The notes under the pieces are model-generated. The model was not told the origin of the DNA. It ran no database searches and saw nothing but the letters and a program-made list of their open reading frames with translations. Below, piece by piece: positions 32,229 to 53,445 of a stretch of 64,000 nt of DNA. The stretch lies in NCBI GenBank assembly GCA_027483945.1, contig JAIXTM010000017.1, forward strand, positions 62,001 through 126,000, in the 5' to 3' direction. The first letter of the stretch is position 1. The number at the start of each line of letters is the position of its first letter. A program made the translations under genes and the position numbers. Origin of the DNA: Hyphomicrobiales bacterium (GTDB lineage Bacteria > Pseudomonadota > Alphaproteobacteria > Rhizobiales > Beijerinckiaceae).

Positions 32229-32714
32229 TCACTCCCCGCCCTTCACCCCGCCGATATGGCGCTGGCTGTAGAGCTGCACGCCGACCGTCTTGATCAGGTG
32301 CTGCTGGGTCTCGAGGAAGTCGATATGGCCTTCCTCGTCCGTCATCAGCTCCTCGAACAGGTCTTTGGACGGATAATCGCCGATCTCGCGGCAATAGGTG
32401 GCGGCCTCCTGGTAGAGCTTGCGCGCGCCGTACTCGGCCTCCAGATCCGCCGCGATGATCTCCTCGACGGTCTGGCCGATCTTCAGCGGGTCCAGAAGCT
32501 GCAGATTGGGATGGCCTTCCAGGAAGATGATGCGCTTCACGAACTTGTCCGCGTGCTGCATCTCCTCAATGGATTCCTCGCGCCACACCTTGGCAAGCTC
32601 CAGGAAGCCCCAATCCTCCAGGAGCCGGTAATGCAGCCAGTACTGGCTGACCGCCGTCAGCTCCGACCGCAGGCCGCGGTTGAGGAATTCGATGACCTTC
32701 GCGTCGCCCTTCAT
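32229..32714 (-). CDS. bfr: Bacterioferritin
   Basis: 161 residues, full length. Haem-containing 24-mer ferritin that stores iron. All six ferroxidase ligands known from E. coli Bfr are at equivalent positions: Glu18, Glu51, His54, Glu94, Glu127 and His130, and the haem-ligating Met52 is present (EEMQHAD). The Shine-Dalgarno is GGAGA. Its promoter region carries an Irr-type box. The ferredoxin gene bfd lies directly upstream on the same strand. Confidence 0.96.
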
Positions 32715-32732
32715 GATCGTCTCCGGCTCAAG

Positions 32733-32749
32733 TTTAGAATGATTATAAA
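32733..32749. promoter_or_regulatory. Iron control element (Irr box) of bfr
   Basis: TTTAGAA-TGA-TTATAAA, one mismatch from the ideal dyad TTTAGAA-N3-TTCTAAA bound by Irr in Hyphomicrobiales. It lies 19 bp upstream of the bfr ATG, where binding would block transcription in low iron. Confidence 0.8.
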
Positions 32750-32798
32750 CTGAGCCGCTGCGTTGGCAAGGGCGGACGATGACCCGTGTTGGCTCTGC

Positions 32799-33056
32799 CT
32801 ATTCCGCCGCGAGCAGCATCGGCACGGGCCGCGCCAGTTCCTCCGCCGTCTCGCACGCGCCGCCGCAACACGTGCCGCGGGCGGCGCGCGCCTCGTCCAA
32901 GACCTGGCGCACGGTGCGCAGGCAGCGCCCGCAATCGGGGCGCTGTCCGAGGCAGCGATAGGCCTGGGCGGCCGTCCTCGGCCGGTCCGGGCGCTCGGTG
33001 TCGAGCGTCGCGCGGAACGCGGCATCGGACAAGGCCCGGCAGGAACAGACGATCAT
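32799..33056 (-). CDS. bfd: Bacterioferritin-associated ferredoxin
   Basis: 85 residues from ATG 33056. Begins MIVCSCRALSD, with the [2Fe-2S] ligand pattern C-x-C (Cys4, Cys6) and a later C-x2-C (Cys42, Cys45). The spacing between pairs is 35 residues, four more than in E. coli Bfd, and there are extra cysteines at 35 and in a C-terminal GTCCGGACE segment. Bfd reduces the ferric core to release iron from bacterioferritin. ATG 33083 upstream is possible but would cross the structured leader. Confidence 0.9.
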   Translation of the reverse strand: MIVCSCRALSDAAFRATLDTERPDRPRTAAQAYRCLGQRPDCGRCLRTVRQVLDEARAARGTCCGGACETAEELARPVPMLLAAE

Positions 33057-33130
33057 GGGCTCTTCGCGACTGGCTGCCCGCACTTTGGAACTGTTAAAAA
33101 GTGCTAGGCTTTTCAGTCACTTAAGAGCCC
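33057..33130 (-). promoter_or_regulatory. Multi-stem structured leader ending at the bfd start codon
   Basis: Read as minus-strand RNA, four nested stems stack in one long hairpin: GGGCUCUU/AAGAGCCC (33123-33130 with 33057-33064), GACUG/CAGUC (33114-33118 with 33068-33072), GCCU/GGGC (33106-33109 with 33076-33079, one G-U) and GCACUUU/AAAGUGC (33098-33104 with 33080-33086), 24 pairs with small internal loops and an 11-nt apical loop. The last stem ends at the base before AUG and contains the only SD-like bases (GAAGAG). No poly-U, so not a terminator. Confidence 0.65.
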
Positions 33131-33202
33131 GTAATGCCGTCTCCCGTCAAGCCGCGGCGGCCTGCGCGCTTCGTCGCACCTCGTCAATCGGCTCCGTCAT
33201 GC

Positions 33203-33400
33203 TCAAGGCCGGGGCGTCTTGCGGTCGGCCGGGCTATCGGGCGGCGTCGACGTCTCGCGCTTGTCCTTGGGCGCGCGCGTGACCGAGGGCGGGTCGCTGG
33301 CGGGAAACGTGTCCTCGATTGACTCGTCGAGAAGCTTTTCCTCGGCCTTGCGCTCGTTCTTGGCGTCCGGCGCGGTGCCGGCATCGTGACGGCCTGTCAT
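33203..33400 (-). CDS. Small acidic/charged protein with DESIEDTFPASDPP motif
   Basis: 65 residues from ATG 33400 (ATG 33424 also possible). Mostly charged and probably disordered; contains EKLLDESIEDTFPASDPPSV, a motif I know from short uncharacterised proteins in Hyphomicrobiales and other proteobacteria, which supports it as a real gene. Function unknown. Confidence 0.6.
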   Translation of the reverse strand: MTGRHDAGTAPDAKNERKAEEKLLDESIEDTFPASDPPSVTRAPKDKRETSTPPDSPADRKTPRP

Positions 33401-33478
33401 GCGCAGCCCTCCATCTGGGTCCATTCCGGAAGGGAACGGCGGGCCGGCACGGCGGGTTCCCGCCTCGCTTGTTCTTTT

Positions 33479-53382: not shown

Positions 53383-53412
53383 AAAAGCCGCCGGGGCGTC
53401 CGGCGGCTTTTT
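53383..53412 (+). terminator. Intrinsic terminator after creA
   Basis: AAAAGCCGCCGG / CCGGCGGCTTTT, 12 perfect pairs with a 5-nt loop and T-tract (the A/T ends also make it usable from the other side by the convergent gene at 53446). Confidence 0.93.
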
Positions 53413-53445
53413 CGTTCCGGCTGGCGCGAGGCCGCGCCGCGGAGG

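Follow-up and report, generated by a model that had tools for sequence, protein, structure and literature searches.

Upstream of bfd, the window (the whole stretch of DNA analysed, 64,000 nucleotides) contains a long dyad that abuts the start codon. This dyad is real and rare, and its loop and apical stem very probably form an Irr box. As a reading of the corresponding hairpin, a controlled promoter, perhaps one protected against stray transcription from upstream, is preferable to a new RNA sensor. The coordinates of all features are given in Table 1.

Results and Discussion

The bfd locus

The ATG of bfd occupies positions 33056-33054 of the minus strand. The gene call combines weak matches to Bfd models, which lie under the curated cut-offs (27.7 of 75 bits for NF007803 and 22.1 of 26 bits for PF04324), with the position beside bfr. 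A lutB-like gene, an ORF with a LUD domain and an ORF of 73 amino acids are located upstream of bfd, all in the same orientation as bfd itself. A scan of positions 32700-33460 yielded no terminator-like site in that stretch. A strong intrinsic-terminator-like hairpin was observed elsewhere in the window, at 53384-53413 (AAAAGCCGCCGGGGCGTCCGGCGGCTTTTT). The genome encodes Irr, with scores of 216 bits (NF045677) and 216.6 bits (NF045678) that are both above the curated cut-offs.

Table 1. Coordinates of genes, stems and predicted regulatory elements around bfd in the window.
Feature	Position	Strand	Basis or remark
bfr, bacterioferritin	32229-32714	minus	TIGR00754, 191.3 bits
bfr ICE with TATAAT -10 inside	32730-32752	minus	matrix, 36.5 bits; promoter scan
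bfd, bacterioferritin-associated ferredoxin, 85 aa	32799-33056	minus	Bfd-model matches and adjacency to bfr
Dyad (leader hairpin) abutting the bfd start codon	33057-33130	minus	fold z -6.24; congener z -7.92
Outer stem, 3' arm, covering SD-like AAGAG beside the AUG	33057-33064	minus	fold
Second stem, 3' arm	33066-33072	minus	comparison with congener
Predicted Irr box (palindrome of the ICE type) CACTTTTTAACAGTTCCAAAGTG, accounting for most of the apical stem-loop	33081-33103	minus	matrix, 32.2 bits
Predicted transcription start zone	33110-33117	minus	6-8 nt past the -10 candidates
Second stem, 5' arm, partner of 33066-33072	33114-33120	minus	two doubly compensated pairs relative to congener
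Predicted -10 region: CTCTTA (33127-33122), or TAAGTG (33123-33118) as in relatives	33118-33127	minus	alignments
Outer stem, 5' arm, overlapping the predicted -10	33123-33130	minus	fold and alignment
AGACGGCAT, pairing with the first bfd codons (33047-33056)	33134-33142	minus	predicted fold, window only
Predicted -35, TTGACG	33145-33150	minus	GGCTTGACG identical in both species; 17 nt from CTCTTA
73-aa ORF, co-oriented, 5' of bfd	33203-33424	minus	possible read-through source together with lut-like genes

The hairpin in front of bfd

Folded as minus-strand RNA, the 74-nt leader has a minimum free energy of -37.1 kcal/mol (z = -6.24), and none of 200 dinucleotide shuffles was equally stable. 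This bears out the strong dyad that an earlier, sequence-only reading had placed at 33057-33130. The plus strand of the same 74 nt folds with -33.1 (z = -4.51). When the energies were corrected for GC content, equally low values were found for 15 out of 25572 windows of 74 nt (64 kb, both strands, step of 5).

The earlier reading had described four stems of 8, 5, 4 and 7 pairs with a single G-U pair. We recovered the stems of 8, 4 and 7 pairs as well as the 11-nt loop, whereas the second stem has 7 pairs and the fold contains two G-U pairs. As described there, the outer stem ends at the base adjoining the AUG and buries the SD-like bases; AAGAG is covered in our fold too. With longer input the predicted fold extends beyond the AUG, and residues 33134-33142 can pair with codons 1-4 of bfd. 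This additional pairing would lengthen the hairpin in read-through RNA.

The probable Irr box within the hairpin

To score Irr boxes we used a matrix derived from the bfd leaders of 27 non-redundant relatives, the genus itself being excluded. Over the 64 kb the ICE of bfr scored best (36.5 bits), the site in front of bfd was second (32.2 bits) and the next distinct site reached 16.8 bits. Judged from this match, the loop and the apical stem of the dyad are very probably an Irr box. The earlier statement that the neighbouring bfr carries an Irr box agrees with the best hit in the window (32730-32752), whereas its counterpart, that bfd shows none, is very probably wrong in view of the palindrome at 33081-33103. 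The predicted bfd box is a diverged site. It was missed by a strict, symmetric ICE pattern, from which it differs at more than three positions. With up to three mismatches this pattern detected the bfr site and three more sites in the same genome, and also the bfd site of the congener. In the literature covered we met no mention of an Irr box in front of bfd for this family, but one may well be described in the main computational survey (Rodionov 2006).

For bfd in relatives, we collected upstream regions from 30 loci of family genomes (55 of 99 genomes gave a match) and from the 80 named loci that ranked best among 505 confirmed stretches. Many relatives, including members of the genera Microvirga, Chelatococcus, Methylobacterium and Enterovirga, share a near-gapless block in front of bfd that consists of TAAGTNNTTGANA, approximately 10 nt and AGTTTTTAATNNTTCTAAACT. 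We take AGTTTTTAATNNTTCTAAACT to match the form of the ICE/Irr box with its consensus TTTAGAANNNTTCTAAA. The Irr-box pattern could be fitted to 62 of the 103 distinct regions, including those of both genus members; in at least three of the 62 (L014, L023 and L031) it lies at a distant, probably chance position. The other 41 regions fall outside the pattern, several of them with a visible variant box and others with no box or a distant one.

The predicted promoter and transcription start

For the alignment of the promoter block we used 57 of the 62 regions, dropped L119 and kept 29 non-redundant sequences, 27 of them from outside the genus. A TAAG-type element accompanies the Irr box in 56 of the 57 regions with enough upstream sequence, and the block common to the relatives reads TTG-N17-TAAGTN, TTGANA and then the ICE. 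TTG precedes TAAG by 16-18 nt in 14 of the 27 relatives; in 2000 shuffles this spacing was seen in 0.9 sequences on average and in 6 at most.

An alignment of the window with the congener shows GGCTTGACG and GGCTCTTAAGT to be identical on both sides of a mostly diverged spacer. The -35 element of the window is 4 nt farther from TAAG than in the relatives, with spacers of 21 nt to TAAGTG and 17 nt to CTCTTA. A consensus promoter scan did not include the predicted bfd promoter in its list. The alignments point to a likely promoter TTGACG-N17-CTCTTAAGT on the 5' side of the dyad, whose elements lie at the hairpin's 5' arm and slightly before it. The mRNA made from this promoter would start at about 33110-33117, within the 5' half of the dyad, and lack the outer arm. 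With such a start the outer 5' arm would be promoter DNA, and the outer stem could therefore not form in the gene's own mRNA.

Accessibility of the start region and a proposed mechanism

In the predicted folds the translation start of bfd is paired with upstream sequence. For read-through RNA the stretch from -14 to the AUG has a predicted openness of 0.12 (window) and 0.10 (congener). If the RNA begins between -64 and -55, the values rise to 0.43-0.60 in the window and to 0.30-0.31 in the congener, so that the start region of the congener's own-promoter mRNA is predicted to be only about 30% open.

In the window, the start region pairs more strongly with the promoter stretch than it does in shuffled sequences (p about 0.007-0.015). 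The same pairing in the congener has z = -0.49 and p = 0.28, with p = 0.09 and 0.045 for shorter stretches. We extended this test to 177 leaders, which reduced to 104 non-redundant ones, 52 of them with the full architecture; L194 was excluded because it was too short. The window ranked first and the congener was outside the ten best of the 52. As a rule for the family the pairing was rejected, since only 5 of the 52 leaders reached p < 0.05 and the mean z was -0.02. Because the pairing does not exceed that of shuffles across the family and is not unusual in the congener alone, we lowered our estimate for a fold-back function.

Based on the predicted promoter and folds we propose the following mechanism. 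The bfd element would be an Irr-controlled promoter built into a long dyad. Irr bound just downstream of the start would repress bfd at low iron or haem. The outer arms would pair only in RNA entering from the co-oriented lut-like and 73-aa genes. Once paired, they would mask the start region of this read-through RNA and prevent its translation. Synthesis of Bfd would then depend solely on transcripts from the gene's Irr-controlled promoter, the hairpin acting as a fold-back insulator.

We give this chain as a whole, from the Irr-controlled promoter within the dyad through an own mRNA without the outer arm to the fold-back of read-through RNA, somewhat less than an even chance. The step in which the outer arms pair exclusively in read-through RNA and thereby block translation is suggested by the folding predictions and is tentative, and a possible Rho-dependent stop upstream of bfd counts against it. 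A double lock, in which one dyad would serve as promoter, Irr operator and fold-back insulator and RNA pairing would silence those transcripts that bypass the repressor, appears rather doubtful.

From the position of the site, one would most simply guess that bfd is repressed at low iron. Bfd probably helps to free stored iron. Repression at low iron is therefore not physiologically obvious, and in R. sphaeroides bfd increases with iron limitation (PMC3413700). According to the same study, the 5' end of mbfA in R. sphaeroides lies inside the Irr box, consistent with repression. Irr represses both bfr and mbfA in Bradyrhizobium (PMC4902296).

The reading of the locus is corrected to one in which bfd is probably under Irr, as bfr is. 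If the proposal is true, a repressor operator and a hairpin that blocks read-through would occupy the same bases, which would make a compact and testable case. It could also explain how a small iron gene is kept under the control of its regulator within a co-oriented cluster.

Conservation of the dyad and alternative explanations

The comparison within the genus comprises two genomes. The congener (G022) is a MAG record from a pond, annotated as 'Hyphomicrobiales bacterium' (JAIXYZ010000002.1). It retains the dyad with z = -7.92 and has 19 of the 26 pairs of the window in common. Two pairs of the second stem are doubly compensated (G-C to A-T and A-T to T-A). Outside the genus such folding is not the rule: across 103 bfd leaders, the two congeners included, the median fold z is -0.1, with the congeners on top (-7.1 and -6.7). 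Leaders from other genera often retain the promoter block and the Irr box, as a rule without the hairpin. Since the outer dyad is kept in the congener and is not general outside the genus, the comparison favours the view that the genus added it to an Irr promoter with a wider distribution. Strong folds of unrelated sequence were observed in three leaders from other genera (L083, z = -5.3; L009, z = -5.0; L107, z = -3.7).

That the fold is not general outside the genus also speaks for the strongest competing explanation, which has an appreciable probability but is not the one we would expect to hold. It accepts the Irr-box promoter and regards the outer dyad as functionless, a quasi-palindrome produced or homogenised through template switching, in which CTCTT (-10) and AAGAG (SD-like) are each conserved for a separate reason. 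The compensated changes could also stem from template-switch correction of palindromes, and the pairing of start and promoter in the congener is unremarkable by itself. Around the ICE of 51 relatives, symmetry is high inside the arms; between 12 and 30 nt from the centre it is down to 6-18 of 51, apart from 23 of 51 at 29 nt. Against a functionless dyad stands its presence as a whole in both species (z = -6.2 and -7.9), together with the finding that simulated random mutation seldom preserves such a fold. When the same number of changes was scattered at random outside the ICE, 1 of 3000 mutants folded as well as the congener; 14 of 3000 did so when the same positions received random bases.

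The symmetry data bear as well on an extended DNA operator, whose flanking arms would be occupied symmetrically by additional dimers of Irr or by another regulator. Symmetry around the ICE is gapless to 18 nt from the centre in the congener and to 12 nt in the window, and the ICE of bfr in the window is likewise flanked by arms (CGGCTC..GAGCCG). However, the outer arms of the window are out of gapless register with the ICE, and the leaders of the 51 relatives show little symmetry farther out than about 11 nt from its centre. We consider an operator of this extent quite unlikely. The idea of a DNA operator, which the sequence-only reading had offered as an alternative, fits the Irr-box-like core of the hairpin.

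Slightly less probable still is the other reading put forward there, a true regulatory RNA in the 5'-UTR of the main bfd mRNA that responds to iron, redox state or temperature. The stable fold at the start region, the dyad and its retention with compensated pairs in the congener agree with it. Several observations do not: the loop is an Irr-box-like site, promoter-like blocks are located at the 5' arm and immediately before it, and the search of Rfam gave no family. The sole Rfam match at E <= 5 was to an lncRNA (E = 4.6, 10.7 bits compared with a gathering score of 60), and a known family was rejected. A thermosensor was rejected too, because the predicted openness stays at 0.09-0.15 from 25 to 60 C. 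We also built a covariance model (R1) from both genus members and ran it with stricter filters on 99 family genomes. Hits with E <= 1 came from 6 of the 99, two of which were the source genomes. Of the four hits in the other 97 genomes, three concern bfd leaders that have chiefly the Irr box in common with the model and do not form the full outer stem; the fourth (G052) has no bfd start. No paper listed by a literature search on riboswitches dealt, by its title, with a bfd leader.

A miniature mobile element was rejected, as the 251-bp region matches once in its own genome and the arm pattern with up to three mismatches has one exact match, this locus, and is not enriched relative to a reversed-pattern control (57 forward and 59 reverse matches versus 89 and 88).

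Comparison with known systems

The Rhizobiales ICE promoters of bfr and mbfA resemble the bfd element in having an AT-rich palindrome near the promoter and the start codon of an iron-storage gene, in genomes with Irr. In contrast to these, the bfd site is predicted to lie downstream of the transcription start, has ACTTT/AAAGT arms and is embedded in a longer dyad.

A counterpart for the fold-back part of the proposal is found in sigG of B. subtilis. There, a hairpin of 20 or more pairs over the start region is proposed to block translation of the spoIIG read-through RNA and cannot form in the RNA from the gene's own promoter (PMC5942855). Compared with this case, the bfd hairpin is predicted from sequence, would carry an Irr operator in its loop and belongs to another organism and regulator. 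Phage T4 provides a similar arrangement. Early-transcript hairpins are described for I-TevI, e and soc, with a translation block shown for T4 genes (PMC2988022). The I-TevI hairpin covers the ribosome site in the early transcript, and the late promoter is placed such that its transcripts lack the sequence for this sequestering hairpin. Unlike the T4 genes of that account, bfd is a cellular iron gene with no known developmental timing.

Further observations on ICE-like sites

The bfr gene of the congener (L003, 1770-1894) has no ICE that was recognisable by eye or found by the strict pattern search; it may rely on the bfd promoter. At another locus (L125), two of the three further sites detected by the strict pattern are located 52 bp apart (G000:C11:272733 and 272785) and are also present in the congener. 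They lie near a small ORF and an ORF that, judged from its translation, resembles a haem-transport binding protein.

Three leaders of relatives (L004, L083 and L107) contain a conserved TTGA-type element between the -10 and the ICE, at times palindromic (TTGATATCAA, GTTGCnnnnGCAAC), which is possibly a second operator. In leaders of the Bradyrhizobium/Afipia type an ICE-like TTTGGAATAGCTTGAAA stands about 95 nt ahead of the start codon, and a TTTTGC element follows it after 7-13 nt. This layout was found in 11 of the best 80 of 505 named loci (L053, L066, L089, L095, L102-L104, L110, L111, L116 and L119); a twelfth locus (L065) has the distant ICE-like site without TTTTGC. An ICE-like site that ends near the start codon is present in 35 of these best 80. 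The site of the regulator may have shifted between activating and repressing positions across bfd leaders.
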